Shown here in pieces: positions 45,869 to 64,000 of a DNA stretch of 64,000 nt. A model generated the notes under the pieces. It saw nothing but the letters and a program-made list of their open reading frames with translations, was not told the DNA's origin and searched no databases. Numbering within the stretch: position 1 is the stretch's first letter; every line of letters starts with the position of its first letter. Location: positions 231,476 to 295,475 of the forward strand of contig RPFO01000313.1 of assembly GCA_009746045.1 (NCBI GenBank), read 5' to 3'. Source of the DNA: Mesostigma viride. Taxonomy: Eukaryota > Streptophyta > Mesostigmatophyceae > Mesostigmatales > Mesostigmataceae. The position numbers and the translations under genes were made by a program.

Positions 45869-47104
45869 ATGCCACGAAAACGGAGAGAACCTGTCAACAG
45901 CGAGATAGAACAGGTAGACAACCACGAGCAAGGTATAGAGGTGGTAGAGGTACCACCGCACGTCCAAGTAGGGACAGGTACAGGTGAGGTCATGGAGAGA
46001 CCTGTGGAAGGCTCCCCAGGATTCAGAGACCAGGGCCGCAGAGATTCATCAGATGGTGACAGTCCAGACTCCAGGTTGGAACAAGGGGGGGACGGGCGCA
46101 GCCAGGAGATGCTCCAGGGGGGTTTCCAGCAGCAGCAACGCCAGCAGCAGCAACCGCAGCAGCAGCAGCAGCAACGACAGCAACAGCAGCAGCAGCAGCA
46201 ACGACAGCAGCAGCAGCAACGACAGCAGCAGCAGCAGCAGCAACCACAGCAGCAGCAGCAGCAACAACCCCAGCAACAACGGCAACCCCGGTTACAGCAA
46301 CAACAACTCCAGACGAGACCACAATGGCCACCATCGGATCCTGAGCAGCAGGGGGACGAGAATGAAGATACCCTGCACTACCGCCATCAGCAGCCAGCCA
46401 CCGGGCGGCCTACGCATCCTTGGGCAGGTCGGGGGCGGCCTCAGGGACATCCACCGGGTCCCCCACACCGGGGCAGACGCAGAGTGTCCTTCGGCAGCAC
46501 GTCCCTGTTACCCACGGCGCTATGGTATTCGGACGAGGAAGGGGAGGTCCCAGGGGCAGATGGCGAGTTCGATGACCTGGAAGGGACTAACGAGGCGGAC
46601 GAGGGATCTGTCACGCAGGGCCCGCCTGTTGGTACTCATAGACCACGGACCAGCCCAGAGGAGACCCGGAGCAGTGTCACCACCCGCGACGAGGAGACTC
46701 ACACGCCAGCCCAGCGCCCGGCACCTCAACCGCAGCGTCCACGGGTGCTTGACCGAAGCGCGGTCCCCTCGCCTGCGCCTGCTGGCAACCTCAGTTTCAG
46801 CAGAGTGGCAGGGTGGTCCCACGCGGAATGGGGTAGATTTTTGCAAGAAAAAAACGCTAATTTCAATCGTCCGAAAACCGGACATTGCGCCGAAATTCTT
46901 GCCGAAAATTTGGCAGCCGAGCGAATTTTTCGCCCGACGGACTTTGCGCCGAAATTTTGTGTCTGCCGTGCTTCGAACTCAACCGACTCCTGCTGTTGCG
47001 TGCACTTTGTCCGATGCCTGCAGGCCACGCACGAATTTTGCGACCGAAATATGACGACTAGACAAGTTTATCGACGACCTACATCGATCTATTGCCACTT
47101 TTGA
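45869..47104 (+). CDS. Glutamine-rich Gag-like N-terminus of element G, probably truncated
   Basis: The start ATG at 45869 (MPRKRREPVNSE) resembles the Gag start of element B (MPRGK). The product has an acidic N-terminus, a glutamine tract coded by CAG/CAA (46127-46310), a proline/arginine-rich part (RGRPQGHPPGPPHRGRRR) and an acidic segment (WYSDEEGEVPGADGEFDD). Likeness to element A's Gag (acidic start, glutamine tract) supports Gag. From about 46840 base composition changes to AT-rich sequence with repeated GCCGAAATTT words, so the last 90 codons are probably readthrough into unrelated DNA. Confidence 0.55.
   Translation: MPRKRREPVNSEIEQVDNHEQGIEVVEVPPHVQVGTGTGEVMERPVEGSPGFRDQGRRDSSDGDSPDSRLEQGGDGRSQEMLQGGFQQQQRQQQQPQQQQQQRQQQQQQQQRQQQQQRQQQQQQQPQQQQQQQPQQQRQPRLQQQQLQTRPQWPPSDPEQQGDENEDTLHYRHQQPATGRPTHPWAGRGRPQGHPPGPPHRGRRRVSFGSTSLLPTALWYSDEEGEVPGADGEFDDLEGTNEADEGSVTQGPPVGTHRPRTSPEETRSSVTTRDEETHTPAQRPAPQPQRPRVLDRSAVPSPAPAGNLSFSRVAGWSHAEWGRFLQEKNANFNRPKTGHCAEILAENLAAERIFRPTDFAPKFCVCRASNSTDSCCCVHFVRCLQATHEFCDRNMTTRQVYRRPTSIYCHF
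46127..46300 (+). repeat. CAG/CAA trinucleotide tract
   Basis: Runs of CAGCAGCAA with ACGACAG interruptions give the polyglutamine of the Gag-like ORF. Polyalanine and polyleucine frames on the other strand are artefacts of this repeat. Confidence 0.9.
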
Positions 47105-47258
47105 AGTCCTTGGCTTGCTAGCAGCTTTTGATTATCAATGCCGGGAACAAAATTGCCGAAATTTTTTATTGAATCAGTACATATATGTGCACATGTCCGT
47201 AATTTTATCATTCGCAATTTTGACATTGTCGGAGTATTTGACAACTTAGGCATTGCGC

Positions 47259-47897
47259 CTAGAAAAAGGTGCCCCATCCGTCGATGTCAAAATCGCCGAA
47301 GGAGTACACTCCCTGGTACTGGTCTCCCCTGTAGTTGGGAGGCTCGCCTGTATACATTTTGGTGTTCCACTTGGCCCCGCCGTTCTCCGCAGCAGCCAGG
47401 AACTCCTGCTGGGCCTCGGCCCTCAGGCGCATCATTGATACATTGGGAGAGCCCGGAATTTCCGTGCTCTCCACCACCACTCTCGCCTGATTGTCAGGCA
47501 CGCATTGGTAAGCAGGGTTCAAATCTGAATCGGGTGGCACCAGATCGATCATGCCATTGCCGAACGCAATGACACCTGCACCCCACTGTGCAGAAGGTCC
47601 GAGCAACTCTACATCAATTCTGATGTTTGCAGCGTGCTCATTTTTGTCGACCATCACATAGGTATGCTGAGAACCGAAAATATTGCTCTGCTCCATTTGT
47701 GACAGTGTTAAATTTCGGCAAGGTTGGCTGCTTGCAATCGACAGGAAATTGGTGACCCCGACAGCCAGACGCGCAAGGGTTATAACTGCAGGTAGAACCC
47801 AAAATTTGTCGATAAGGAGTAATGGAAGGGCACGACCACCAGTCACTAGTATTCGCTTCACCGGACACCTTTTCAGCTTCCGGATAAAATTCAGCAA
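47259..47897 (-). CDS. Unrecognised protein, probably a C-terminal exon
   Basis: The frame is 212 codons on the - strand and ends FDIDGWGTFF then TAG at 47259. The part from about 47720 down has normal amino-acid composition: a beta-rich stretch (GSQHTYVMVDKNEHAANIRIDVELLGP, given here only as its position 47663-47580), IPGSPNVSMMRLRAEAQQEFLAAAEN and MYTGEPPNYRGDQYQGVYSFGD. The first 60 residues look less convincing and may be intron or leader. No family was recognised. It is the first non-element coding candidate after the retroelement block and is on the same strand as the transposase-like gene to its right. Confidence 0.45.
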   Translation of the reverse strand: MLNFIRKLKRCPVKRILVTGGRALPLLLIDKFWVLPAVITLARLAVGVTNFLSIASSQPCRNLTLSQMEQSNIFGSQHTYVMVDKNEHAANIRIDVELLGPSAQWGAGVIAFGNGMIDLVPPDSDLNPAYQCVPDNQARVVVESTEIPGSPNVSMMRLRAEAQQEFLAAAENGGAKWNTKMYTGEPPNYRGDQYQGVYSFGDFDIDGWGTFF

Positions 47898-48017
47898 GAG
47901 CAGCGGCGATTAGATACTAAATATTGCGTTATTGGTTCGTACCGTACCCAGACAAAAATTGTACTAGTGACGCAATTGTACTAGGCGGAATGACAACTGC
48001 GCCCGGCAAATAAGTAT

Positions 48018-48229
48018 TTATTGCTCCAACCCCAACCTAACTTGTTCCGGAGCTGTTCGAAGCGAAGAGCAATGGAAGGGATCGGACCCGAGCCAGATTT
48101 GAGTGCGGAACATGATGGCTGGCCTACCTCACTCCGAACATTAATGTGGACCCGGGTTCGAATCCTGTCAGTGCTATTCGCTTCGAACAGTTCCGGAACG
48201 ATTTTTTTTGTGGGGGTGGAGCAATAAAT
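48018..48229. repeat. Fold-back element of about 210 bp with a B-box-like core
   Basis: TTTATTGCTCCA at 48018 is mirrored by TGGAGCAATAAA at 48218-48229, and the arms continue with GTTCCGGAGCTGTTCGAAGCGA against TCGCTTCGAACAGTTCCGGAAC in two blocks of under 20 bases, about 45 bp per arm with a small gap. The interior contains GGGTTCGAATCC, a perfect Pol III B box. No full tRNA fold was found. It could be a MITE or a tRNA-derived SINE with paired ends. Confidence 0.6.
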
Positions 48230-48520
48230 TCTCGACATGCAGAAACAAATGTCGAATAGATTGTGCAAAAAAATATCGAAATCCTTATCATTATTTAAAT
48301 ATACAGCATAAAATTATGTTGCAGTAAAAAATAACTGTTAATTGAAGGCCGCAAAAAATTATCAACTACCCTTAAACTTGACCACAGAAAGATCTCGAAA
48401 AATATATACAATATATGCGGCCACCTTTTTACACCCTACTGAAGCCCCACTCTAAAGATATAATACGAGCCGAAACTAGGGCGTCGTCTACCCGCAGCGA
48501 GACCCCAATTTCTTGTTAAT

Positions 48521-49266
48521 TTAAGTCGGTGCCGGCCCCTCCGGGGCTTCATCCTTGATCACCAGCGTAGTAAGCCACTTGTCGAGCTCCTTGCTCATCC
48601 TGATGTCGGCACACATTCCGTCGCTGCGCACGCGTGCTTCTAGCCGGAGAGCCGGAGCGACGCAGAGATAGCAATTCACAAGCTCGGGCTGGCGTGACGG
48701 TGGCCAATCCTCAACGTTGAGCGTGAAATGCAGGGGGTCATGCTTATCCCGCTTCCAAATCCGAACGGGAAGAATGCCGTTCCCGGCGAGGAACAGCTCC
48801 TTCTCCCGTCCGTTCCGGCCCTCGACCCACCTCTCGAAGTTCTCGTCTAACACGATCGGCCCGGCTTCGCTTACAACCTCAGCCAACCAGAACGGGTGGA
48901 TGGGATCGTGATCCGTGTCCTTGTCCGATGGAACTGCCACATAGTCGTGGAGTCTCATCTGCCGGCCCATCGCCTCCCGCTTGTCCTTCAGCTGCTCCCC
49001 CCGCGTCACCATGCGAACCGGAGGGTTGGGCTGGCTCGGTGGCAGCAAACGGACAGTTTTCATCGAGCTTCCTGCATCATTGAACTCGATGATAAACGAC
49101 CACTCGCTTAGACATCCCTCAAACCGCCCAGCCAAACAGGGCGGACAGTAGCAGGAATAGCGCCTAATCATCAAAAGGCCAGGGTCGGACTTGTCCAGTC
49201 GCCACCAATGCGCCTTCTTGATGCCAGGCACCTCCTCACCTCCGCGCGTCGGCCGGACTCGACGTC
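48521..49266 (-). CDS. Transposase-like gene, exon 4 (C-terminus)
   Basis: The exon begins after the acceptor GATGACAG at 49267 and runs to a stop at 48521. It contains VPGIKKAHWW, then RYSCYCPPCLAGRFEGCLSEW, a cysteine-rich segment that in related metazoan and algal proteins follows the RNase H-like core. The remainder (LHDYVAVPSD, PFWLAEVVSEAGPIVLD, LPVRIWKRDKHDPLHFTLN) looks like a small beta domain. Exons 3 and 4 are one base out of phase with the simplest donor choices, so the exact exon 3 donor is unsettled. About 290 bases downstream to 48230 hold nothing recognisable. Confidence 0.6.
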
Positions 49267-49337
49267 CTGTCATCAAATAGTTAGGACAAAAAGAATACCG
49301 TTCAAATTAGCAAAATTGACCAAAAACCAATAAAACA

Positions 49338-49674
49338 GGGTATAGCTGCAGAGAGACCCCTTAAAAAAAAATTAACGACAAGACATCAAGTGATCAAAAT
49401 TCGACACAGGGTATAGCTGCAGAGAGACCCCATTCGAATCATAATAACAACGTACGACAAGATATCAAGTGATCAAATTCGACACAGGGTATAGCTGCAG
49501 AGAGACCCCATTCGAATCATAATAACAACGTACGACAAGATATCAAGTGATCGAAATTCGACACAGGGTATAGCTGCAGAGAGACCCCTTCATACCGAAA
49601 GAACAAGCGAAATTTCATACCTAAAAGAAAAGCAACCCATGGACAGTATATAGGGTCTCTCTGCAGAGATACCT
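49338..49674 (-). repeat. Intron 3 of the transposase-like gene: five CTGCAG hairpins, four in tandem
   Basis: Hairpins of the form GGGTATAGCTG / CAGAGAGACCC start at 49338, 49409, 49487 and 49566, giving spacings of 71, 78 and 79 bases. The units also share the flanking words TCGACACA, CCATTCGAATC and ATATCAAGTGATC. A fifth copy in the other orientation lies at 49653-49674. It may contain the donor, AAG|GTATCT on the - strand. Confidence 0.85.
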
Positions 49675-49747
49675 TTATTGGGTTTGAATTTTTATAGAAC
49701 AGCGGCAGTTGACGTCTTAAAACCTGAAATAACACAAAATTCCGTAC

Positions 49748-50524
49748 CGGGGGTAAAAGGAAGAAGTGGCGAGTGACGTTCTCGGCCCGCGCGCGGGCCG
49801 ACTCCCTGCTCGATGTCTTGCCGCCCTGCCAGTTCTGGTTCAAGTAGGCGACTAGCTGGTGGGTCTCAAGTATGTGCTGGTTTTCGGGAATCCTCTGCAT
49901 TTCCCTCAAGACGCACTTGCACTTCGCTCCTTGACCATCCACCTCCCCCTTCCCATGCTGCTCCCCCATGTAGTGGAACTCAAAGGCCTGCAGGTCGGGA
50001 TCCCCCATGAGCAGACCGTTAATCTGGTTAATCACGTACCTGGACTTAAACTGCACCGCGCAGTTGTCCGAGCACATGTACAGGTTTCGCACCTCTACCC
50101 CTACTTCTACCCGCAGGGTTTCCAGAATCTTGCGAAGAGCGTATACGAGTGCGCGCTCGCCCCGCTTGATACTGGAATCCCCCAGGAAAAAGAAGACGCG
50201 CTTTTCCAGCTCGCCGTTGAGCCGATAACGCACGATCATGGGCATCAGGATGTGGCTGCGCTTGTGGAAGTACTGCGACTGCAGTTGGACGTAGCTGCTG
50301 TTCTCGTAGTTCTCGGCCCAGTCGCCGTGCACGAGCACGTCCCCCTCTCTCAGATTCTTCTCCCGATCCTTGATTGTATCCGCCTGCGACCAGGCCGTAA
50401 AGCAGTGCACGGTGAACTTGTCCCACATCTTAAGAATCTCGTCCCGCAGCTCAGCTGGGGTGGACCTCATTTGGACTTGCTCGGGCCGCTTCACCTTCTT
50501 CGCCGCCCTGCCATCGGTCTCGCC
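49748..50524 (-). CDS. Transposase-like gene, exon 3 (RNase H-like core)
   Basis: The exon follows the acceptor TTGCGAAACAG. It holds three acidic motifs in the order and spacing of an RNase H-fold nuclease: VLVHGDWAENY (first D, with a second acidic residue), LYMCSDNCAVQFKSRY (second D) and HGKGEVDGQGAKCK (third acidic residue). The HGKG-x-x-D-G-x-G block and the SDNxxxQFKxRY block are shared by a large family of uncharacterised animal and protist proteins. I infer a DDE/D-type transposase or a domesticated derivative. The donor is placed at CCCCCG|GTACGG but AAAG|GTATCT at 49672 is also possible. Confidence 0.62.
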
Positions 50525-50679
50525 CTGTTTCGCAAAGGTCCGCAGACAGTTTCGATTTGCAATAAAATCGCATTTCGATAAGATAACTGCAACTCACAAA
50601 GGGTCTCGCTGCAGCTATAGGTCACAAAAAAAAAAGTCAACAACATATTAACGGAGAAATAAAATCGAAACCAACTCAC
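50525..50679 (-). repeat. Intron 2 of the transposase-like gene with one CTGCAG hairpin
   Basis: The 155-base intron starts GTGAGT and ends GAAACAG on the - strand. A hairpin (GGGTCTCGCTG / CAGCTATAGGT) lies at 50601-50622 near its middle. Confidence 0.75.
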
Positions 50680-52151
50680 ATTCACCCGTCGGGTCACAGT
50701 CTGCTCCACCATCTCGAACTTGAACCAATTCAGAATCTCCGTGGAATTCTTGTCCCGATCACACTGCACCCAGTTATTATGGATGCCGCATGATTCCTCA
50801 GGACAGAACCCCTCCACACACGCCATCTTCAGTATGCGGTGAACCCTCTCCGTCCTCGGCACCCCATCTTCGTCCTCCACCAGCCTCTCAGAAATGTCGA
50901 GGTCTTCCAGGTCCCGTCCCCGCCATTCATCTTCCCCCTCCCCCTCTTCCATCCCCCCGCCCATTCCGCCCCCTTCACGCAGCCCGTTATCCCTGCCGTC
51001 AGTCTCGGCGGACACCGGGCAGTGAAAGTGCTTGATCCAGTCCGTCGAGTGAATGGCTTTCCACATTCCGCAAGTACCGTCCGGCTCTCTGTACTTGGAG
51101 CATCCCGCACACTCCGCGCCACACTTGCAGTTCTTGCCGTGGTTCGCATTGGAGTGCTTGGTCCACGCCCCCATGGCCGACTGCATGGTGACGTGCTTCT
51201 CACACGCGCACAGGTTCCTCTCCTTCCACTTGCCCTTGATGCAATCGGGCGCGTATTTGCAGAAGGTCGTGTAGCCCACGTGAATGCCCACGTCCTTATC
51301 ATACTGGTTACTCCTTTTGTTCCAGTACGCATGCTTTTCGAGAAAGTGATTGTACATGTCCTCCTTGGAGGTCATGTAATAGCGCGCTCCCTCAACGGCG
51401 ACGAGCACCCCGTGATTGCCACGACCCTCCCTGCTGTAAGTGCGCTTGACATCCTTCATCTGGGAGGAGGCGCGCGACTCATCATCGTGCATCCACGCGT
51501 CCACTATCGCGTCAATCACGAATTGCGGCAAAGGGCGCCCCTTGCGAGCCTGCGCGTGTCTGAGGTAGTCCAACTTCTGCTGCCTTCGTATCGCGCGAAT
51601 TCCGCGAATCTTCTTGGCGTCCATCCCCGTCAGGTTCTCCAACTCCGCGGCCGAAAACTCCTTCTCCAAGTCGTCACCACAGTAAAGCGTGGACATCAGC
51701 ACCATCCTGACGTCTCTGTCTGCGTCGCTTTTGGTCAGACCATCAAAAAAGCCGTTAATCCGAGCCACCCAGAACCTGTTCAGTTCTGCCATCCGCTCCT
51801 GATTGTAAAGCTTTTTCGCCTCCTCATGATACTTCCCGTGACCTAGTTCAGCGGCCCTAGAGTTAAAGCCAGCAATCATCTGGTCGAAAGCCGGCCCCCG
51901 CCCCTCGGGTTTTGTCATCGCCTGAGCCGCTTCAAACGCCTGGTCAGCGAAATATTCCCCAATAACCCTCTTTGATTTCGAGTATTCTCCCGGCCGCTTG
52001 ACTTCCTTGGCTTCAGGCTGCGCTGGATTCTGGTTCTCATCTCCGAAAACCCTTTTTGCGCCAGTTGACTGCTTCGTCCCGGTGTTCAACTTAATTGCAC
52101 TGAATCCTGGACGACCGGACGCAAGGGCGAAAACTCCCACCCGTTCGCGTG
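50680..52151 (-). CDS. Transposase-like gene, exon 2 (N-terminal and cysteine-rich part)
   Basis: The exon is 1472 bases, acceptor CATGCAG, donor AAT|GTGAGT, open throughout and in phase with exons 1 and 3. It begins with a basic linker (VFGDENQNPAQPEAKEVKRPGEYSKSKR, described here at 52065-51985), then a helical region with LENLTGMDAKKIRGIRAIRR (51690-51590) and a segment of conserved cysteines and histidines (51290-51020: FCKYAPDC, LCACEKH, HGKNCKCGAECAGC, DGTCGMW, HFHCP) that probably binds zinc. A glycine/glutamate-rich low-complexity stretch (51000-50940) and EGFCPEESCGIHNNW follow. The layout, a cysteine-rich module before a nuclease core, fits a transposase-derived protein. Confidence 0.65.
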
Positions 52152-52260
52152 CTGCATGCCATGACGACCGGCACAACGAAATCCATGCAAATCGAGTATC
52201 GTTGGGAAAAGCGACAATTACAGACAAAGTTCGAAAGTGTATCATTTTTTACCACGATTG

Positions 52261-52518
52261 GGGTCTAGCTGCAGCTAGACCCTTAGAGGGGCTTTTTCCG
52301 TTAGACGAAAAGATTACCTGATGTGGTGAACTTAGCATACCCCGACCAAGATTGGGGTCTCGCTGCAGCTAGACCCTTCATTGCGGCGTGCGATTGTTAA
52401 ATCACAGACTTCTGATTCATTAATTTTATAGCAACCATAAAGAGGGTCTAGCTGCAGCGAGACCCTTGAATTTAAGCTATTGCTTGTGGTTATAAATGGT
52501 CTAGCTGCAGAGAGACCC
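52261..52518 (-). repeat. Intron 1 of the transposase-like gene: four CTGCAG hairpins
   Basis: Hairpins start at 52261, 52355, 52444 and 52497. Their arms combine GGGTCTAGCTG, GGGTCTCGCTG and CAGCTAGACCC, CAGCGAGACCC, CAGAGAGACCC independently. The intron (52152-52552) starts GTGAGG and ends CATGCAG. Confidence 0.85.
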
Positions 52519-52552
52519 CAATAAGGACGAAAAGATTTCAGGTTTTCCTCAC

Positions 52553-52604
52553 CTTCGCGGCTCATTCTCTTATTAGTTCTCCCAGAACACTCAGATACCT
52601 GCAT
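52553..52604 (-). CDS. Transposase-like gene, exon 1
   Basis: ATG at 52604 opens 17 codons (MQVSECSGRTNKRMSRE) plus one base before the donor GAAG|GTGAGG at 52552. Phase fits the acceptor of exon 2 exactly. AT-rich DNA with TATATA words lies upstream (52620-52820) and could hold the promoter. Confidence 0.5.
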
Positions 52605-53337
52605 GGCGAGAATAACAAAAATAACACAGTAGCATTGATAAAATTGTTTATCAGAAAATATATATACTAATTACAGTATATTTTGCAAAAGATTTTATAA
52701 TATATTGTGAATAGCATGGTTAAATTCCACATACTTTAATAATATGGTATGTTAAAGTATATAGAATCATTATTTAGTAAATCATTTACAAGAAAAAGTG
52801 GTATAGACTATTATTATTATATAGTTCGGCAATCTATGATAGTAAGACACCGGATGTCAGGTTTATCAGCGGCCTCCAGGGCTATAGCGTCTCGCTGCAG
52901 CGTGATTGTTTGGTGCTATGACTGATTTCAGTAGATGTGCAGAAAAAAATTTATTTCCATGACCACACCAGGAATCGAACCCAGAACCTCATTGTACATT
53001 TCGCATGGTAACGATGTCAGCCAAACATCCGAATGTTCCCAGGTAAATGGGCTGGAGGTCGTCTCTTTTTATACCTGCGGCCACAAGCACGGGTGACGGC
53101 ATATTGGATGTCGTCCAATCCGCTAGCTTGGTTCCAAAAGATGGGATCGAGCTTTTGCACCAGCGCCGCGCTTCCAGTTTTCAGTTCCGTGGGGAGGAAC
53201 GAGGATGCCACGTTTCCAATTTTTTCAATACCGTTCAGCCCTGTGACGCCGCGTCCGTTTTGCGAATTGCGACCGTCCCATCGCCCATCGAAAAAGAAGC
53301 GCAGCCGCAGAGAGACCCCATAGCTGATACGAGCTGC
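52605..53337. other. AT-rich intergenic DNA with a tRNA-like B box
   Basis: 52620-52830 is strongly AT-rich. A degenerate CTGCAG hairpin lies at 52884-52905 and half of one at 53300-53319. On the - strand at 53030-52960, TGGCTGACATCG and GGGTTCGATTCCTGG look like A and B boxes of a tRNA, but the acceptor stem does not close, so a tRNA-derived SINE is more likely than a tRNA gene. Confidence 0.4.
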
Positions 53338-54061
53338 CATATCGTTTCGACGTTTGCATGCTACCTGCTGGATTATAAAATCCTACGTTGATACCTGCCT
53401 GGTGCCGGAAGTTTACAAGGAAATCGGTCTGCTTTCGCCGCACAACGAAAAAAAGGTGAGCTTTTGCCGCATCCTGGATGGTAGGCTGACTAAAATTGTT
53501 CTATCAAAAACGGCAACTAAACAGCGCATGCACGCCGACGACACAGTTAGCCAGCTGGGCGAAGACATGTCCTTGCTGCCATCGCAAGAAACTCTATGTT
53601 GCAGCAAGAGTGATAAAAATGTCTGGCTTCCTTCTTTTCGTTGCTAGCTAAACCCTGCAGACATCTCGGTAGAGTCAGCTAAGCCGATCCTAATCCACAT
53701 CTGGCATCCATCCCTTTAGTCTAGTTGCCATGGAGCGTTTCTTGGTCTCGCACATGTCGATCATGGTGGTGCTAGGCTTTCACTTGGGTCACCCTTTCCA
53801 TGTTTGCTATGCCTTTGGTCTGGTTAGGTTATAGGTGTAGATGTGCACATACTGCATTTGCTGCGTTTCTAATCGGTGCTCCTGTTTGATGCTTTTTTTC
53901 CCCTTCATATCGTTTCGACGTTTGCATGCTACCTGCCGGATTATAACATCGGACGTTGCTACCTGCCTGCATAACGATAGTTTGCAAGAAATCTTCATTT
54001 TGCCGAAACACAAAAAAAGGTGATCTTTTGCCGCAACGTGGATGGTAGGCTGACTAAAATT
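53338..54061. repeat. About 165-bp sequence present twice
   Basis: 53338-53507 and 53908-54061 share CATATCGTTTCGACGTTTGC, GCTACCTGC, AAAAAAAGGTGA and TGGATGGTAGGCTGAC in the same order, with small indels. The second copy runs directly into the satellite array. The DNA between the copies shows no gene. Confidence 0.75.
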
Positions 54062-56390
54062 GTGCTGCTACGTATCAATACATGTGGGGGGGTGCTGCTA
54101 CGTATCAATACATGTGGGGGGGTGCTGCTACGTATCAATACATGTGGGGGGGTGCTGCTACGTATCAATACACGTGGGGGGGTGCTACGTATCAATACAT
54201 GTGGGGGGGTGCTGCTACGTATCAATACATGTGGGGGGGTGCTGCTACGTATCAATACATGTGGGGGGGTGCTGCTACGTATCAATACATGTGGGGGGGG
54301 CTGCTACGTATCAATACATGTGGGGGGTGCTGCTACGTATCAATACATGTGGGGGGGTGCTGCTACGTATCAATACATGTGGGGGGGGTGCTACGTATCA
54401 ATACATGTGGGGGGTGCTGCTACGTATCAATACATGTGGGGGGGTGCTGCTACGTATCAATACATGTGGGGGGGTGCTACGTATCAATACATGTGGGGGG
54501 GTGCTGCTACGTATCAATACATGTGGGGGGGTGCTGCTACGTATCAATACATGTGGGGGGGTGCTACGTATCAATACATGTGGGGGGTGCTGCTACGTAT
54601 CAATACATGTGGGGGGGTGCTGCTACGTATCAATACATGTGGGGGGGTGCTACGTATCAATACATGTGGGGGGTGCTGCTACGTATCAATACATGTGGGG
54701 GGGTGCTGCTACGTATCAATACATGTGGGGGGGTGCTACGTATCAATACATGTGGGGGGGTGCTGCTACGTATCAATACATGTGGGGGGGTGCTGCTACG
54801 TATCAATACATGTGGGGGGGTGCTACGTATCAATACATGTGGGGGGGTGCTGCTACGTATCAATACATGTGGGGGGGGTGCTACGTATCAATACATGTGG
54901 GGGGGTGCTACGTATCAATACATGTGGGGGGGTGCTGCTACGTATCAATACATGTGGGGGGGCTGCTACGTATCAATACATGTGGGGGGTGCTGCTACGT
55001 ATCAATACATGTGGGGGGTGCTGCTACGTATCAATACATGTGGGGGGGTGCTGCTACGTATCAATACATGTGGGGGGGGCTGCTACGTATCAATACATGT
55101 GGGGGGGTGCTACGTATCAATACATGTGGGGGGGCTGCTACGTATCAATACATGTGGGGGGTGCTGCTACGTATCAATACATGTGGGGGGTGCTGCTACG
55201 TATCAATACATGTGGGGGGGTGCTGCTACGTATCAATACATGTGGGGGGGTGCTGCTACGTATCAATACATGTGGGGGGGTGCTACGTATCAATACATGT
55301 GGGGGGGTGCTGCTACGTATCAATACATGTGGGGGGGCTGCTACGTATCAATACATGTGGGGGGGTGCTGCTACGTATCAATACATGTGGGGGGTGCTGC
55401 TACGTATCAATACATGTGGGGGGTGCTGCTACGTATCAATACATGTGGGGGGTGCTGCTACGTATCAATACATGTGGGGGGGTGCTGCTACGTATCAATA
55501 CATGTGGGGGGGTGCTACGTATCAATACATGTGGGGGGGTGCTGCTACGTATCAATACATGTGGGGGGGTGCTGCTACGTATCAATACATGTGGGGGGGG
55601 CTGCTACGTATCAATACATGTGGGGGGGTGCTGCTACGTATCAATACATGTGGGGGGTGCTGCTACGTATCAATACATGTGGGGGGGTGCTGCTACGTAT
55701 CAATACATGTGGGGGGGTGCTGCTACGTATCAATACATGTGGGGGGGTGCTGCTACGTATCAATACATGTGGGGGGGTGCTGCTACGTATCAATACATGT
55801 GGGGGGGTGCTGCTACGTATCAATACATGTGGGGGGGTGCTGCTACGTATCAATACATGTGGGGGGGTGCTACGTATCAATACATGTGGGGGGGTGCTGC
55901 TACGTATCAATACATGTGGGGGGGTGCTGCTACGTATCAATACATGTGGGGGGGTGCTGCTACGTATCAATACATGTGGGGGGTGCTGCTACGTATCAAT
56001 ACATGTGGGGGGGTGCTGCTACGTATCAATACATGTGGGGGGTGCTGCTACGTATCAATACATGTGGGGGGGTGCTGCTACGTATCAATACATGTGGGGG
56101 GGTGCTGCTACGTATCAATACATGTGGGGGGTGCTGCTACGTATCAATACATGTGGGGGGGTGCTGCTACGTATCAATACATGTGGGGGGGTGCTGCTAC
56201 GTATCAATACATGTGGGGGGGTGCTGCTACGTATCAATACATGTGGGGGGTGCTGCTACGTATCAATACAGTGGGGGGGGATGCTACGTATTAATACATG
56301 TGGGGGGTGATGCTACGTATCAATACATGTGGGGGGTGATGCTACGTACGTATCAATACATGTGGGGGGGTGATGCTACGTATCATTTAT
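54062..56390 (+). repeat. Satellite array 1, G-rich strand on +
   Basis: Roughly 80 units of 26-30 bases share the core CTACGTATCAATACATGT followed by six to eight G and GCT or GCTGCT. Length varies by one G and by presence of a GCT triplet. The array is very homogeneous; the last units near 56270-56390 begin to vary (GATGCTACGTA). The unit has no stop codon in any + frame, so three long frames span the array, but they are not genes. Confidence 0.95.
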
Positions 56391-57290
56391 TTATTCATGC
56401 CATCACCCCCCCACATTTAATTATTAATGCCAGCACCCCCCAACATTCATTTATTCATGCCATCACACCCCCACATTCTTTTATTCATGCCATCACCCCC
56501 CACATTTATTTATTCATGCCATCACACCCCCACATTTAATGATTAATGCCAGCACCCCCCAACATTCATTTATTCATGCCATCACACCCCCACATTCTTT
56601 TATTCATGGCAGCACCCCCCACATTTATTTATTCATGCCATCACCCCCCACATTCTTTTATTCATGGCAGCACCCCCCCACATTTATTTATTCATGCCAT
56701 CACCCCCCCACATTCTTTTATTCATGGCAGCACCCCCCAACATTCATTTATTCATGCCATCACACCCCCACATTCTTTTATTCATGGCAGCACCCCCCAC
56801 ATTTATTTATTCATGCCATCACCCCCCCACATTTAATTATTAATGCCAGCACCCCCAACATTCATTTATTCATGCCATCACACCCCCACATTCTTTTATT
56901 CATGGCAGCACCCCCCACATTTATTTATTCATGCCATCACCCCCCCACATTCTTTTATTCATGGCAGCACCCCCCAACATTCATTTATTAATGCCATCAC
57001 ACCCCCACATTCTTTTATTCATGGCAGCACCCCCCCGCATTTATTTATTCATGCCATCACCCCCCCACATTCTTTTATTCATGGCAGCACCCCCCACATT
57101 TATTTATTCATGCCATCACCCCCCACATTCTTTTATTCATGGCAGCACCCCCCCACATTTATTTATTCATGCCATCACCCCCCCACATTTTTATTAATGC
57201 CAGCACCCCCCACATTCATTTATTCATGCCATCACCCCCCCACATGTATTTATACGTAGCTTCCCCCCCCCACATGTATTTATACGTGGT
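56391..57290 (-). repeat. Satellite array 2, inverted and diverged relative to array 1
   Basis: Units of about 30 bases alternate in pairs (CATGCCATCACCCCCCCACATT... and CATGGCAGCACCCCCCACATTT...). They are recognisable as the reverse complement of array 1 units: the last two, at 57241-57288, read CACATGTATTTATACGTAG/G, almost the exact inverse of CTACGTATCAATACATGTG. The G-rich strand therefore switches from + to - at about 56,390. Confidence 0.9.
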
Positions 57291-57295
57291 CGTAA

Positions 57296-57760
57296 GGGTC
57301 TCGCTGCGGGTAGACCCTCGGAATTTTGTTTTTGTATTGACGTAAGGGTCTCGCTGCAGCGAGACCCCAAGGAATGTCAATTTTTCATGTTTTCATGATG
57401 GGGGGGTCTTTCTTTTCTCACCCTTAAAATGATTTGTTTTTGTATCGGTGTTAGGGTCTCGCTGCAGCGAGACCCCTGCGAATGTCGACTTTTAATGTTT
57501 GCAAGATGGGAGTGGGCTTTCTTCGCTCACCCTAAAAATTATTTGTTTTTGTTTGACGTTAGGGTCTCGCTGCAGCGAGACCCCAAGGAATGTATACTTT
57601 TTTATGTTTGCATGATGGGAGGTTGCTTGTTTTCGCTCACCCTAAAAATGATTTGTTTTTGCTTGAAGTGAGGGTCTCGCTGCAGCGAGACGCCAAAGTT
57701 TTACATTAAACTAAATGTCCCTTTTAGAATCCACGAAAGGGTCTAGCTGCAGCGAGACCC
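57296..57760 (+). repeat. Tandem units of about 108 bp, each with a CTGCAG hairpin
   Basis: Hairpins start at 57296, 57346, 57454, 57562, 57672 and 57739. The four middle ones repeat at 108, 108 and 110 bases together with shared flanks (AAGGAATGT, ATGTTTGCATGATGGGA, CTCACCCTAAAAATGATTTG). The last hairpin is about 80 bases before the acceptor TTCTGCAG at 57837, so this tract is probably in an intron upstream of the next coding exon. Confidence 0.85.
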
Positions 57761-57837
57761 TCCCCATCGTTTTTCTGCCGGCGATTCAGATTCTGAATGA
57801 CATTTGTGAAACTTGCTTTTTTGATATTGTTCTGCAG

Positions 57838-59026
57838 ATGTCGTCCTCCTATTCCGATTCTGTCAAGGCCACTCCCGTTTCACCCAAGATGACGTCGAAC
57901 ACCTCGCCGGACCGAACGGCAACGGAGGAGTTTCCTCCGTTGCAGTTCGGTCCCGTAAAGATCTTGCGAGGTCCCCCCCACCGAGTCCCCTTCGCCCTCC
58001 AAGTCCAACTTGCCCCCCAGCGAGTTGGACAGAATTATACCCCCCAACCCTCTCGCTGCTGCGTCTCGCGCTCCGTCCCGCTCTCCGCCCCGTAAGTCTC
58101 CATCGCCGCCCCCCAAGTCGGCCGGAGCTACTGCGTCCCGCTCGCCGCCCCGCAAGTCCCCCAAGTCCCCCGCAACTGCGACCCGTTCGCCGAACCGCAA
58201 GTCCCCCTCTCCGCCCAAAGTTCCCCCCGCTACCGCGTCCCGCTCTCCTTCTCGCAAGTCCCCCTCGCCGTCAACCAAGAACCCCGCAACTCCGTCCCGC
58301 TCGCCGTCCCGCTCTGCTTCCCCCAAGTCCCGCTCGCCGCCACCCAAGTCCCCCGCTGCTGCGTCCCGCTCGCCGTCCCCCAAGCATTCCAGTTCTAAGC
58401 GTAAGCCTGCGGCCGAGTGGGTAGAGGAAGACGACCGCACCAAAGAGCTCAGGAAGCTGAGGAAGTCTATCAGTGAGCTTGTTGAGGAGGACGAGCGCGA
58501 TCAGACTAACGGGAGGCCTGAAGACCCGGAATCGCCGGTTCGGGAGTCGCGTCAGAAGCGGTTGTCCGATTTGTTAGCAATGGCCGCAAGCTTTGCTGAC
58601 GAATACGCGGCTCTCGACAAGAAGGACAAGGAGAAGGAGAAGGCGGAGAGGGAGGCCATCGAGAAGGCGGAGAGGGAGAGGGTGGAGAGGGAGGAGAAGG
58701 AGAGGCTGGAGAAGGCGGAGAGGGAGGAGGAGGAGAGGGAGTACAAGGAGAAAAAGGCTGCCCAGGAGAAGGAGCACAGGATCCTGGTGGCGAAGCAGAA
58801 GGAGGAGGCGAAGAAGAAGACGGAGGCGGCAGCGAAGGAAGTTCTTGCGGAGGAGGCCGCTCTTTTTTTGCAGATGCGACAGGAGAGGATGAAGGCGGAA
58901 GAGGCCGCGAGGAAGATGGAGGAGGCTGCGAGGAAGGAGGAGGAGGCTGCGAAGGCAGTTGAGGGGGAGAAGGACGAGAACGGGAGCCCACCCCTTCTTC
59001 ACGAACGATTTTCAGTCGATTATCAG
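57838..59026 (+). CDS. Unrecognised multi-exon gene, exon 1 seen: SP-rich and coiled-coil protein
   Basis: ATG at 57838 follows directly after a polypyrimidine tract and CTGCAG, so the true gene may start further upstream. After a frame change at a C7 run near 57975 the frame is open to the donor TATCAG|GTATGT at 59026. The N-terminal part has repeats of RSPPRKSPSPPPKS type (58070-58390), like serine/arginine-rich or chromatin-tail sequences. From 58430 to 58980 it is a highly charged helix (KDKEKEKAERE, EREEKERLEKAEREEEERE), a predicted long coiled coil or single alpha-helix. Function unknown. Confidence 0.6.
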
Positions 59027-59219
59027 GTATGTTTATTAATGTGAGACGTACATTTTTCAGATGGCTTGAACGGTGTGTGTGTATCGTAGAAAGGGTTGGA
59101 TTTTATGTCATACATTGATCGTAAGGGTCTAGCTGCGGAGAGACGTTGACCTAGGAGTTAAGGTTGTTGACGACGACGACGACGATGTGTGGCCTTTTTT
59201 TTACTCTTGTTGTCTGCAG
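59027..59219 (+). other. Intron with one degenerate CTGCAG hairpin
   Basis: It starts GTATGT and ends TGTCTGCAG. A hairpin variant (GGGTCTAGCTG / CGGAGAGACGT) lies at 59125-59146. Flanking exons are both phase 0. Confidence 0.75.
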
Positions 59220-60269
59220 CCCTCCACGGTGGCCATTCTGAAACAGTACCTGGCTCAGACTGAGTCTGAGGCTGGGGTGAGTCGTAAAACCGAAAAGGGC
59301 TTGAGAGGCTTGATCCGCTTTCTTTCGGCCGAGATAGCGTTTGCAGAGAAGTCCGGTGTCGTCGTGGACCGTCCGGAGTCGGCACACATAATTTGGAAGA
59401 ACGACCGCCTGGGCCGTCTTGCATTGTTCGAAGCCACACAGCGAGCCATTCATGGGAAGAGGGTCGTTGGTGACGACATGTATGAGGTTTTGAAGATCGC
59501 GCAGTCGTGCATCCTTAATCTGAAGGAGGATGTCGGACGTTACTTTCCCCGTCGTGCTTTAATATGGTCGACGCTCTTTGATGAGGTTGAAAAGTTCGAG
59601 GTCCACATTGGCTTCACATGCATCGAGGCTTCCTATATGGAAACCTTGAAAACCACTGCGTTGCATCAGCTCTTTAAACTCATGACTGGAGATATGAGAG
59701 CGGATTCGAGGGCTTCACTGTCGGAAGATGAAGTGTTTGATATTGTCAGGCAAGGATTTGTTGACACGTCCAACAGTGACTTTATCGTAATTGTGCCGGG
59801 AAGAATGAATGACGTAGGAGGATTGGAGGAGCGCGCACATGAAGTGATCGCGCATTTGGACATGGCAAGAGACCACTTACTGCAATCTTTTGTTAAGTGG
59901 CGGACTGACTTTCTTGTCAGCCCGGACGCCAGCCTTTCGCGGGAAGCGGTCGCTTTCTTTTTGGATTGGGCTGGACAGGTGATCCAAAGTTTCCGGCACC
60001 GGGAGGACTTCCATGTTATTCAGACATATAAGCCATACCGGGAAATCGTCCAGGAATGGTTGGATCAAATCTCGTTGGTTGATTGTCTCCAGAGTATCCG
60101 AACCAAGACAGACACGGAGTGGTCTGATTTAGAGGCGGGAGGCCATTGGCAGTCCCTCGAGTTGTTCTTCGAGGCGGAATTGAGGCGGCAACTGGAAAAG
60201 GAGAGAGCCCATCAAGTGCCGATATGGCCTTTGGGGAAGATTTTGAGGAGGTGGAAGTTCTACGTTTCG
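59220..60269 (+). CDS. Same gene, 350-codon internal exon, unrecognised helical domain
   Basis: The exon is open throughout and phase 0 at both ends (TGTCTGCAG| and TTTCG|GTACGT). The sequence has a regular, globular composition: STVAILKQYLAQTESEAG, LIRFLSAEIAFAEKSG, YEVLKIAQSCILNLKEDVG, LFKLMTGDMRADSRASL, AVAFFLDWAGQVIQSFRHR. It looks all-helical. No family was recognised. Confidence 0.65.
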
Positions 60270-60376
60270 GTACGTTAACTTGCCGATATCGTTTATCGAT
60301 TTGGGTTGTTTCCATTCCCTGAATAGGGCTCTATATGCTGACCAACCTTCATGGTTTGTCCTGTCATATCATGCAG

Positions 60377-60439
60377 GGGGGCTCCATGCCAGGGGACGTA
60401 TCGGAGGATTTACCTAATTTGTCAGACTTGGTTGATAAG
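60377..60439 (+). CDS. Same gene, 63-base exon
   Basis: It encodes 21 residues (GGSMPGDVSEDLPNLSDLVD then K) between ATGCAG| and AAG|GTGGGT, phase 0. The intron before it (60270-60376) has no hairpin. Confidence 0.5.
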
Positions 60440-60576
60440 GTGGGTGCTTGTCCGTCGAGTTTCCACGAGCATCTTACATGGGGTCTAGCTGCAGGTAGAC
60501 CCTCACCCTTTTATTGAGACTGACATGTTCGGCTAATTTCAACGGTGCCCCCAACCAATCTGTTGTCTTTTTTCAG
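60440..60576 (+). other. Intron with one perfect-arm CTGCAG hairpin
   Basis: A hairpin of GGGTCTAGCTG / CAGGTAGACCC lies at 60481-60502 in the first half of the intron. Donor GTGGGT, acceptor TTTTTTCAG. Confidence 0.75.
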
Positions 60577-60639
60577 GGGGCGGCTGCGGCGATGGCTGTT
60601 GACAGTGCTGGTATTTGGTCTGGACTCGAGATGGAAATG
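60577..60639 (+). CDS. Same gene, second 63-base exon
   Basis: It encodes 21 residues (GAAAAMAVDSAGIWSGLEME then M) between TTTTTTCAG| and ATG|GTAAGC, phase 0. Its length equals that of the preceding small exon. Confidence 0.5.
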
Positions 60640-60763
60640 GTAAGCATTAAACGATATCCGGATGTCTGCATTTCGCCTGAAGTTTTAGTGAGCGCATTAT
60701 GCGAAATATACAAATGTCGACTAATTTTGATTTCCAATGAGCTGTCGTATTCGGTGTTGACAG

Positions 60764-60891
60764 GCGGGGGGTTTGGCCTCAGCAGGCGCTGCCGGAGAGG
60801 AAGAAAACGCTGGAGGAGATGAGGATGGGGGGATGAAAACGCTGGAGGAGATGAGGATGGGGGAGACGCTGAGGGAGAAGTGGCTGTGCAG
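60764..60891 (+). CDS. Same gene, exon with a 31-base internal duplication
   Basis: Acceptor GTGTTGACAG at 60763, donor TGTGCAG|GTACGT. The word GAAAACGCTGGAGGAGATGA is present twice (60801 and 60834), a tandem duplication of 31-33 bases that shifts frame. As drawn the exon ends in phase 2, while the next exon begins in phase 0, so one base is gained or lost here, perhaps in a G run. Confidence 0.4.
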
Positions 60892-61017
60892 GTACGTTCA
60901 TCCGCCGCGAGTTCGTGTGATTTTTTTCGTGCTGAGGGGTATCTCCGCAGAGAGACGATGGTGCAACAATCGAACTGAGGTGAAGTCCCTTCTTGTTCGT
61001 TTTTTTTTGTCATGCAG
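60892..61017 (+). other. Intron with one degenerate hairpin
   Basis: Donor GTACGT, acceptor TTGTCATGCAG. The hairpin variant GGGTATCTCCG / CAGAGAGACGA lies at 60937-60958. Confidence 0.65.
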
Positions 61018-61560
61018 GCGGGGGCTGTCGCTAAGGGTACTGCGGGGGGGAAGGCGGCGAAGCCCGAATTGAGTCAGTATGAAAGGGAAAAGCTGGATTC
61101 CCGCAAGAAGGTTGCGAAGGATCATATTATTGCTGTTGGCCTGATCATGCTTAAGTCTCCGCCCGATGGCGTCGATTCTGAGGGACCTGCGGGGTCCGAG
61201 TTTCGCAAGTACCTGACACGACTTGAGGCGGAAGTCGATGCCGATTTCGATACGGAGGTGTTGGGTGCCGCTACCTTTAAGAGTGAATTGGCATATGAAT
61301 TTGTAAATCTGGTGAAGTCGAAAGCCAACAAGAATTTCAAGTGGCAGCCTAAGGAGTACTCAGAGGCAAAGGTTGACAAGATCGAGAAATTCATGAAGGT
61401 TGATTTTCGTCGTCGGGCCGCTGAGGGAAAAAGGGCGCTGAATGCGGTGGCAAAGGCCAACAGTAAGAAGAACGCGGAGGCGAAGGCGGCGGAGAAGGAG
61501 GCGAAGAAGGCGGAGAAGGAGAAGGCTAAGGAGGCCAAGAAGCAGCAGAAAACTGGACAG
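61018..61560 (+). CDS. Same gene, 181-codon exon, basic helical protein
   Basis: Phase 0 at both ends (ATGCAG| and GGACAG|GTACGA). A globular segment (KKVAKDHIIAVGLIMLKS, FRKYLTRLEAEVDADFDTEV, LAYEFVNLVKSKANKNFKW, KVDKIEKFMKVDFRRRA) is followed by a lysine/alanine/glutamate repeat tail (61440-61550). Unrecognised. Confidence 0.6.
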
Positions 61561-61749
61561 GTACGATTGTTGTGAAAATTTAGACCTCTCGCTGCGGGTA
61601 GACGCTGACTGGCTGCGGGACTTGGTGTTTAGTGTCAGTAAGGTATTATTCCAACAGAACTTTGTTCGTCCCTGAACAGGATGTCGTGGTCGGCCTAAAG
61701 ATTACTGACTTGAGCAAATCCTGCGGTCCTTTTCGATTTTTTACTTCAG
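61561..61749 (+). other. Intron(s) with one degenerate hairpin
   Basis: Donor GTACGA; candidate acceptors CCTGAACAG at 61679 and TTACTTCAG at 61749. A degenerate hairpin (GACCTCTCGCTG / CGGGTAGACG) lies near 61583-61604. Confidence 0.5.
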
Positions 61750-62909
61750 GATGACGGGGGGACGAAGACGCCACGGTGGAGAAGAAGTTACCTGGTCATG
61801 ACGCCGTGTTCGCGCTGGTGAAGGATATGCTCAAGTACTGCTCGAGTAGGCGGATGGCGGACGTCGATGACCTGCCAAACTGGCCCGAGTTCTCCCCTTT
61901 CTTGAGCTGCTCCGGTCACTCAACAAGCTTTTTAAGGAGGGGGTGCTCACGAGCAGTGGGAACCGGACACCGACCCTATCATTGAAAGCTGGAAGCCTTC
62001 GAAAAAGGTCGACTCGAACAAGGAGGTCAGGGACCAGAACATCCGGAAGGCCAATCTCTCAGGGAAACGCGTTGGATTCGGCCGGCCGATTTTCAGCAGA
62101 CCGGATGTTTCAGTATGCGGATCCAGACGGTCAACGCGCTTATTTTGCCAGAGGCTTTGAGGCAGCGGCGTTTAAACCTTGAAACCATTAAGGAGAACGG
62201 CCGCATTCTCCTCAATGCGCGGGACAACGCCTTGCACTTCAAGGTTGTTGTCCCGGTCTGGCAGTTCCCTTTCCAGGCGCTTGCCGAATCTCAACCTGAC
62301 CTGTTCGACAAGCAAATCTTGTGCATGCCGGATTTCGTCAAGTGGCTGAAGCATACCACGGCGCCAAGATTGACGCGGAGGATGTGGGGTCCAGGTACTT
62401 CCGGCCCCTTTCGGATACTGAAGTCGACGTGTGGCTTAACACGGAGTCCACCACCTCTTTCCTCGCGAGAGGACTTGAGTGGCGTACCTACGCCAGGGTG
62501 GACGAGGTGGCGCAGTTTTGCCTCAGGAGATCGAGGGCAGTCCGGGTTGTGTTCAACCTGCTGTGCAATACTGCGATGAAGTCCTACGATCCGAAATTTT
62601 TTGAGGAACGGCGACCGGTACCGTATCTGGTTCTCCGGTACGCGGTGGTGGATGGGAACCACTACTTTAAGGGGTTAAAGTCGTTTCTCAGGGGGCCGGA
62701 TGCGGGTGGGGAGAGGTTCGGGCAATGATGTGCGAGGGTGGGGCGGAGTCCAATTTCGCAAATACTCCTAAGGAGGCGGAGCACGCATTCCAGGACCTGT
62801 TGCGGAAATTCCGTGGTGGTTACATGGGTACGAACGTCATTCTTCTCAAGGGTGGCGACCTGCTCCCGTCGTGGAGTGAGCTGCGAAATCTACCTAAGGC
62901 AAAAGAAGA
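61750..62909 (+). pseudogene. Same gene, long coding stretch in several frames
   Basis: Coding-like sequence runs from the acceptor at 61749 to the donor GAAGAT|GTAAGC at 62909, but it changes frame several times: HDAVFALVKDMLKYCSSRRM and DVDDLPNWPEFS (61800-61900), then SWKPSKKVDSNKEVRDQNIR (61990-62050), ETIKENGRILLNARDNALHF (62185-62245), WKLxx then AYHGAKIDAEDVGSRYFRPL (62345-62405) and NTPKEAEHAFQDLLRKFRGG (62760-62820). Either this exon is decayed or it contains small indel errors. No family recognised. Confidence 0.45.
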
Positions 62910-63164
62910 TGTAAGCTATCTATTTTGGCAGGGTCTAGCTGCGGGTAGACCCTCGGAATTTTCGTGGTTGTTTTTTGTGTGCGCTTCAAGTTTTTTGCGA
63001 GGGTCTCGCTGCAGCTAGACCCTCTCCTTTTTTTGTTGGAATTTTCGTTGCGTATTGTCGGCCGTTTCTTTTTCGAATTTTGTTAGGGTCTATCCGCAGC
63101 TATACCCCTCGCCTTTTATGACTGAGTTTTGTCGTTGCTCGCTCGATGTTAATTGATGTCGCAG
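62910..63164 (+). repeat. Intron with three CTGCAG-type hairpins
   Basis: The hairpins start at 62931 (GGGTCTAGCTG / CGGGTAGACCC), 63001 (GGGTCTCGCTG / CAGCTAGACCC) and 63086 (GGGTCTATCCG / CAGCTATACCC), spaced 70 and 85 bases, with GGAATTTTCG and TTTTTTG words in the shared flanks. Donor GTAAGC, acceptor GATGTCGCAG. Confidence 0.85.
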
Positions 63165-63971
63165 GCGGTGCTGACCGGCAAGCTGGAGAAGCTGTTCGAC
63201 ATCGCCAAGGGGGCGAATTCGGAGGACTTAGCCGTGGCGGATCGTACGCTGGGCCAGGCGTTGCTTGACGTGTGGAACTACAACAAGCTATATCTATACG
63301 GCAAAGTCACGCGTGGGAAGGGCCACTATATTGCGGATGGCCACTACACCAATCTGCTCACGTACATCCTCCCGGCTATGCGGCAAGCGGGGGGAAGGGA
63401 AGGGAATGTGGAGCCGGCAGCGGTGGATGTACACGAGGAGGAAGCAGAAGGAAAGAAAAAGCCGGCCCACAGCATTGCTTCAGTGCATTCCGCTTACAGT
63501 CGCACGCTGGCCAACACGTTTCTCCGTCTGACACAGGAGCAGACTGATGATCCTGCCTCAACGAAACCCGCGCCTGAGGAGGTGATGATGCAAAGGTGCA
63601 AATTCGCCAATGCAGAGGGGGAGAAGAAAGGCCAGAAGGTCTCTTGGACTTCTTTCAGGAACTTGGCCAGCCTTCCTATGATGGACGCCGTGATCGATTG
63701 CATCATGAGCTGCCAGGTTGGACCGGAAAAGCTCACCAAGTTGGTGGAGATCGCCAAGGATGTGCTGGAGTGCCTGCGGCTGACCATTTGCGCCAGATTC
63801 AAGGAGGATGAGACGCTGGAAGCGCAATGCAAGGACGCAAATGGCAAGGAGTTTGTGGCGTCTCATATTTTCGAACTCGTCTTCAATCTCCATCCTCTCG
63901 CTCGGCCGGTCGGCAGGAAGGAGATTGTGTGGCCAGATACCGGGAATTTTGGGATGTGGCCGTCATCATAA
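63165..63971 (+). CDS. Same or next gene, final exon in window, unrecognised
   Basis: The frame is 269 codons, open from the acceptor at 63164 to a stop at 63969-63971. Motifs: LTGKLEKLFDIAKGANSEDL, TLGQALLDVWNYNKLYLYGK, YTNLLTYILPAMRQ, RTLANTFLRLTQEQTDDP, NLASLPMMDAVIDCIMSCQV. It looks all-helical with an acidic insert in the middle. The C-terminus (GNFGMWPSS) could be intron readthrough if a donor lies before 63971. Confidence 0.55.
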   Translation, partial: AVLTGKLEKLFDIAKGANSEDLAVADRTLGQALLDVWNYNKLYLYGKVTRGKGHYIADGHYTNLLTYILPAMRQAGGREGNVEPAAVDVHEEEAEGKKKPAHSIASVHSAYSRTLANTFLRLTQEQTDDPASTKPAPEEVMMQRCKFANAEGEKKGQKVSWTSFRNLASLPMMDAVIDCIMSCQVGPEKLTKLVEIAKDVLECLRLTICARFKEDETLEAQCKDANGKEFVASHIFELVFNLHPLARPVGRKEIVWPDTGNFGMWPSS

Positions 63972-64000
63972 CGAGGAACATCGCCTACCTTCTTAAAGCC

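Follow-up and report, generated by a model that had tools for sequence, protein, structure and literature searches.

In the transposon Hermes, a pair of quasi-palindromic subterminal repeats is bound cooperatively by two BED domains, according to the passages of PMC10368747 that deal with these repeats, and the soybean CACTA element Tgmt*, which is 20.5 kb long, carries subterminal repeats from which 14 palindromes can form, and it codes for a putative protein for these repeats, as stated in the part of PMC2613891 devoted to the element. Kolobok elements are described, in the sections of PMC9587614 that treat them, as having a 4-bp target duplication and 5'-RR...YY-3' ends, and their KolobokP lineage as making duplications of 3-5 bp without a strong target preference. 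Here we show that short palindromes of the alga Mesostigma viride are fixed parts of a family of terminal inverted repeat (TIR) transposons, which comprises three size classes (a gene-carrying class of about 20 kb, a 10.3-kb class and a miniature inverted-repeat transposable element, or MITE, of 0.59 kb) with common ends and a 4-bp target duplication. The sequence analysed, referred to as the window, is the whole stretch of 64,000 nucleotides from contig RPFO01000313.1 (C58:231,476-295,475) of the 439.9-Mb assembly. A preliminary description of the window had placed the palindromes in the introns of two unrelated genes.

Comparison of copies showed that both genes are parts of one multi-copy transposable element, and the view that they are unrelated is therefore replaced. 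The element and its genes are laid out as follows.

46811 to 64000, no strand assigned: part of the TIR transposon of about 20 kb, which runs about 2.6 kb beyond the window; its break is common to the copies C2 and C224.
46811 to 46890, plus strand: left TIR, beginning GGGTGGTCCCACGCGGAATGGGGT, with an approximate inner limit, from the comparison of copies.
48521 to 49265, minus strand: last predicted exon of the minus-strand gene, from an open frame and a hand-read acceptor.
49748 to 50524, minus strand: middle exon of the same gene, with a DDE-like stretch; donor uncertain, Pfam silent.
50680 to 52107, minus strand: first large exon of the same gene, Cys/His-rich; Pfam silent.
54062 to 57283, no strand assigned: two minisatellite arrays of about 30-bp units in opposite orientation, between the genes; the array length differs between copies.
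57839 to 64000, plus strand: plus-strand gene of many exons with no recognisable domain, from hand reading and Pfam.

The left end is sharp at 46,811 when the window is compared with the copies in C2 and C224, and the right end, equally sharp and lying about 2.6 kb outside the window, is known from five other copies (C777, C224, C1890, C1702 and C2) and not from the window's own locus. Pieces of both genes are repeated in the assembly, with 40 matches scored of 152 candidates for the plus-strand gene and 40 of 223 for the minus-strand gene, all of them 100% identical, and copies of the element share 97-100% identity along a large part of their sequence. The 24-mer GGGTGGTCCCACGCGGAATGGGGT, with which the inverted repeats begin, occurs 187 times in forward and 176 times in reverse orientation in the assembly, and 0 times when read backwards as a control. 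An exact 4-bp target duplication flanks 19 of the 22 two-ended copies examined, the exceptions being L038, C382 and C100. The duplications were TGTT (C224, with 16.1 kb between the TIRs), AGGG (C2) and CTAA (C1, 20.7 kb) in the large class and TGCG in the 10.3-kb copy C80; they were exact in 8/9 MITEs (not in L038) and in 7/9 further pairs (not in C382 and C100). TIRs common to the copies and a duplication of fixed length, two features of TIR DNA transposons (class II), were both found here.

A scan with a 22-mer consensus, derived from the palindrome sites themselves, recovered the roughly 25 near-palindromes of 22 bp described between 49,338 and 63,107 as 22 sites matching at 19 or more of the 22 positions plus three weak ones (17/22). 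As a control, 10 order-1 Markov sequences of the same length yielded one hit of 19 in total. With the pattern first proposed, two mismatches being allowed, the window contained 60 matches versus 9.0 +/- 3.3 expected (0/100 shuffles reached 60), of which 44 fell within 49,338-63,107, and a search with the outer eight bases (GGGT N14 ACCC) gave 16 sites in the window part of the element (17.2 kb) and 3 in the preceding 46.8 kb. The palindromes are real and form an ordered family, far above chance. The statement that none occurs from 1 to 49,337 had to be corrected, with two degraded copies found at 47,778 and 48,484. The sites of the 22-mer scan are the following, none of them assigned to a strand.

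47778 to 47799: degraded palindrome, 18/22, at the same place in C1702, C224 and C2.
48484 to 48505: degraded palindrome immediately beyond the stop codon of the minus-strand gene, 19/22.
49338 to 49674: five palindromes in intron 3 (49338, 49409, 49487, 49566, 49653), of which the first four lie within or next to a 78-bp tandem array.
50601 to 50622: palindrome with a degraded right half in intron 2, 19/22, unchanged in 3/3 aligned copies.
52261 to 52518: four palindromes in intron 1 (52261, 52355, 52444, 52497).
52887 to 52908: degraded palindrome outside predicted exons, 17/22.
53297 to 53318: degraded palindrome with an intact right half, 17/22.
57296 to 57760: six palindromes between the minisatellite and the start of the plus-strand gene (57296, 57346, 57454, 57562, 57672, 57739), four of them in a 108-bp tandem array.
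59125 to 59146: palindrome in an intron, 20/22.
60481 to 60502: palindrome in an intron, 21/22.
60937 to 60958: palindrome in an intron, 20/22.
61584 to 61605: degraded palindrome in an intron, 17/22, unchanged in 6/6 aligned copies.
62931 to 63107: three palindromes in an intron (62931, 63001, 63086).

The gene models are predicted and their exon borders are hand-read GT-AG sites only; they agree with the earlier assignment of 10 copies to introns 1-3 of the minus-strand gene and of 7 copies, one of them weak, to introns of the plus-strand gene. That exons are free of palindromes held within the window, where 0/23 sites of 19/22 or better fell in predicted exons (7,980 bp of predicted exon versus 5,988 bp of other non-minisatellite DNA); past its end, a 21/22 site present in 5/5 copies lies inside an open frame of 713 residues in C224, the one copy in which the frame was examined.

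The smaller classes carry the same palindromes. The MITE, 585-588 bp long and with the same ends, has exactly two of them about 226 bp apart in 9/9 two-ended copies, and both are invariant in eight aligned MITEs. It resembles the large element only over about 130 bp at one end and 60 bp at the opposite end, and no gene sequence was recognised in it; introns are therefore not required for the presence of palindromes. In the 10.3-kb element (C80, L048+L049), which again has the same ends, 21 of the 22 sites of at least 19/22 stand in two blocks (2,051-2,649 and 7,021-7,559) that are mutually inverted copies, and each block abuts a minisatellite in a manner like that seen in the window element. 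At least five pairs of facing TIRs 10,313-10,365 bp apart were present among the first 100 of 363 TIR places. Three pieces of the minus-strand gene had no match in the 10.3-kb element, and the plus-strand gene is represented by remnants at 7,848-8,105 (88 residues at 40% protein identity) and, near the right end, at 9417-10005 (last exon, 59% protein identity). Besides the ends, the right-most 0.9 kb or so and one gene stretch of 111 bp (74% DNA identity), its likeness to the window element is found only at the palindromes, over 24-47 bp at 84-100%. Judging from these sequences, the 10.3-kb class descends from a long-diverged, gene-carrying relative. The gene remnants of this class are partly inverted, and five of its other open frames gave no Pfam match.

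Those window palindromes that could be aligned are found at unchanged positions in the other copies. When eight copies or part-copies were taken together, strong palindromes showed 4 substitutions in 2,612 positions versus 139 in 9,050 for the non-coding flanks (P = 4e-11), with 6 and 75 gap positions, respectively, in the same alignments; the most divergent copy, C2, alone gave 1/484 versus 77/1,671 (P = 9e-8), all P values being indicative only because the copies share ancestry. Palindromes change less than the surrounding DNA between copies, though not in one decayed copy.

We also analyzed the symmetry of the site in 38 sites that the outer-eight-base search returned from the window element, the 10.3-kb element and two MITE entries; the two entries are one MITE family in opposite orientation, and 36 sites remain without the repeat. 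There were 14 distinct site sequences, or 11 when strands were collapsed. Half-site positions 6, 9 and 11 are invariant in 28/28 half-sites of the distinct sequences, and the variable positions take C or A (position 5), C or A (position 7), G, C or T (position 8) and T or C (position 10). The base just outside the palindrome is a purine in 58/58 half-sites, and the site is therefore 24 bp long, R GGGT M T M N C Y G followed by its mirror. Most changes had been thought to keep the ability of the arms to pair, which was taken to point to selection for a hairpin. Neither idea was borne out, since the pairing of the halves did not exceed that of halves re-paired at random (P 0.35-0.91) and no compensatory pairing between the arms was seen. 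Pairing reached 236/297 in the full set versus 238 expected (P 0.69; P 0.53-0.65 in three other sets, by permutation) and 134/154 in the distinct set versus 136 expected (P 0.82; P 0.91 with strands collapsed), and re-pairing P values ranged from 0.35 to 0.75 across four site sets and three measures, although with so few distinct sites the permutation could miss a weak pairing effect. Halves thus combine freely and have tolerant positions, which fits a two-fold protein site, whereas an RNA hairpin would predict covariation. The spacings of the sites, inspected by eye only, showed no clear helical phasing.

On balance we favour, with some reserve, the reading that the palindromes are two-fold binding sites of 24 bp for a dimeric protein, most simply an element-encoded one, which would be needed for transposition or its control. 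Such a dimer would contact both half-sites of the 24-bp sequence; if encoded by the element itself, as is simplest, it would have to bind element DNA for transposition or for the control of this process, and the sites would have been multiplied by tandem duplication within the non-coding space of the element. The palindromes look intronic because the non-coding space of the 20-kb class is largely introns. The binding of a protein, the origin of this protein in the element and the effect of its binding are what we infer here. The closest functioning parallels are the subterminal repeats of Hermes and of the soybean element Tgmt*.

Several observations weigh against binding by an element-encoded dimer. 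Most sites of the 20-kb class lie 1-16 kb from the ends, unlike the first few hundred bases in Hermes and CACTA elements, and in the window the 900 bp next to the left end contain no scanned site. Pfam recognised no domain in either element gene, and hence no DNA-binding domain. In the decayed copy C1702c the sites had 3 substitutions and 6 gap positions in 286 versus 14 and 25 in 966 for the flanks. The copies are young, so that the substitution test rests mostly on the divergent copy C2, and some of the differences counted for flanks that lie in tandem arrays may stem from misalignment. One palindrome block of the 10.3-kb element immediately precedes the remnant of the plus-strand gene, an arrangement similar to that of the 20-kb class, and this element is therefore a far-diverged relative and not a fully gene-free control. 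Finally, the binder could be a host protein.

This last alternative, in which the sites would serve a host factor for transcription, insulation, replication or silencing, whether to the benefit of the transposon or at its expense, is the most serious rival, and we judge it unlikely. It would give the same conservation, and the spread of the sites through the whole element and beside minisatellites is what promoter, boundary or replication elements would lead one to expect. Sites elsewhere in the genome would be expected as well, but the first 100 listed places of the motif give little sign of them. The 14-mer GGGTCTMGCTGCAG occurs 1,779 times in forward and 1,785 times in reverse orientation in the assembly (1 and 0 times for the control), and 99 of the first 100 places listed, out of 3,564 on both strands, fall in sequence of this transposon family: 78 between large-class TIRs or in two-ended MITEs, a single one in a MITE with one end, 10 in further loci alignable to the element and another 10 in two aligning stretches. 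The remaining place, C2:4,784,571, was left out of the sequence comparison.

That the palindromes act as intronic RNA hairpins, retained because they serve splicing or the control of transcripts, is very unlikely. Each palindrome can fold back on itself, all 23 strong copies of the window lie outside predicted exons, and the block of the 10.3-kb element still precedes a remnant of the plus-strand gene; yet the MITE has its sites without recognised gene sequence, the site kept in 5/5 copies past the window sits in an open frame in the copy examined, and left and right halves do not covary. A role as splice site, suggested by the resemblance of the centre to a TGCAG acceptor, was rejected, as the MITE keeps the palindrome. 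No known RNA family was found in the window at gathering scores.

Tiny mobile units are represented by the GC clusters or PstI palindromes of fungal mitochondria, and a palindrome of this kind could have spread inside the transposon, which would account for many copies with unrelated flanks, those of the MITE included. We give this little credence: the palindromes hold the same positions across the copies compared, 0/29 distinct sites are flanked by a 4-bp direct repeat, and tandem duplication accounts for several clusters. The mobile or gene-converting unit of the preliminary description thus stands in so far as mobility is key, but the palindromes themselves were not seen moving. Very unlikely, too, are functionless leftovers of past duplication, with conservation due to gene conversion or young age, a view to which the 97-100% identity of the copies and the scant protection of sites in C1702c lend themselves, but against which the roughly tenfold lower divergence of palindromes than of flanks over the summed alignments, the confinement of variation to four half-site positions and the standing of the sites as the best-kept internal DNA of the 10.3-kb relative speak.

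Regarding the two genes, the minus-strand one may be transposase-like, judging by the DDE-like order of the motifs DWAENY ... SDNCAVQFK ... HGKGEVDG. At its junction 49,748/49,265, none of the donors tried fitted the reading phase convincingly. For its middle exon the PDB contained no solved relative, and single-sequence structure prediction gave an unusable model with a predicted local distance difference test (pLDDT) score of 38.6. The window copy of the plus-strand gene shifts frame several times between 61750 and 62911; the right part of the same gene is an open frame of 713 residues in C224, and less damaged copies therefore exist. No relatives of one exon of each gene were detected in viral contigs.

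Other copies of the family differ in structure. The copy in C2 (C2:4443648-4466111) is a mosaic, about 97-98% identical to the window at both sides and about 93% identical in the part that corresponds to window 52.5-61.3 kb, as if two subfamilies had recombined. In C1702:410000-459999 (L025-L029), several complete and partial element copies lie close together, with two gene pieces 16,146 bp apart, an arrangement that suggests nesting or tandem duplication. One MITE copy (L030) contains about 0.75 kb of extra inserted DNA with a pair of inverted arms of about 109 bp.

In the window, the element is inserted in a long open frame (45,869-47,104) with many glutamine repeats, which is presumably a gene of a retrotransposon; a tRNA-Ser predicted by ARAGORN at 46094-46169 falls in the CAG repeats of this frame and is probably false. 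Left of 46,811, integrase, reverse transcriptase or chromo matches were obtained in 4/7 open frames tested, two of them above the Pfam cut-off. Positions 1-46810 appear to be largely stacked retrotransposons, which would explain why few palindromes lie left of the element.

The palindrome cluster at 57.3 kb had no match in phage records by distant blastn, the exact palindrome was absent from viral contigs and from the prokaryote genome collection, and the degenerate palindrome was absent from viral contigs. A degenerate palindrome in one Bradyrhizobium contig was judged to be due to chance, as was a literature match of the strings for the arms and the TIR start to one paper on 14-3-3 zeta. No such element is named in the repeat section of the Mesostigma genome paper (PMC6947507) or in the repeat-method passages of PMC7027972.

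An intron puzzle is thereby replaced by a testable transposon account. The element is a large DNA transposon of very young age and high copy number in an early-diverging streptophyte alga, and its gene-carrying form, a far-diverged relative and a MITE have all retained one short, well-defined symmetric site. The 24-bp site, two candidate proteins and a substrate of 586 bp offer a ready assay of how a 20-kb element finds and pairs its distant ends. We regard as possible, with more doubt than confidence, that the family represents a not yet described superfamily of giant DNA transposons in algae, with a 4-bp non-TTAA duplication, GGGTGG ends and no recognisable domain, that would use dozens of 24-bp dimer sites along its whole length and beside minisatellites, one of them even in a reading frame, to fold or coat the 20-kb element in transposition.

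Compared with known systems, the palindromes resemble introner elements, whose insertion makes an intron with splice sites at or close to its ends, in being repeats in the introns of an alga, but the moving unit ends here in TIRs, not in splice sites, and palindromes occur without introns; an introner element was rejected on account of the TIR ends and of the MITE, which carries palindromes without recognised gene sequence. Foldback-type elements come to mind for the two inverted blocks of the 10.3-kb class, built of tandem repeats; unlike in those elements, the common TIR is short and not tandem-built, and the blocks lie about 2 kb inside the ends. The GG...CC ends and the 4-bp duplication agree with Kolobok, but a typical Kolobok duplicates TTAA, which was found in 0/19 exact duplications, and a typical TTAA Kolobok was rejected for this reason; from its ends and the length of its duplication the element may be compatible with a lineage like KolobokP, which is characterised by long direct terminal repeats. 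hAT elements make 8-bp target duplications, and assignment to hAT was rejected, as the duplication is of 4 bp; Pfam gave no hAT or BED domain match. Membership in CACTA (CMC) was likewise rejected, since the ends start with GGGTGG instead of CACTA and the duplication is of 4 bp and not of 3 bp, in which the element differs from Tgmt* too. The repeats of Hermes are concentrated towards the tips and those of Tgmt* are confined to the last few hundred bases, whereas the sites described here run through the whole element. In the passages of the two sources cited at the outset, Hermes shares with our element quasi-palindromic repeats inside the transposon, there bound by two copies of a DNA-binding domain, and Tgmt* and En/Spm share with it a similar size, the carriage of genes and a motif in direct and inverted orientation that forms palindromes, such motifs being putative targets of a protein of the element.

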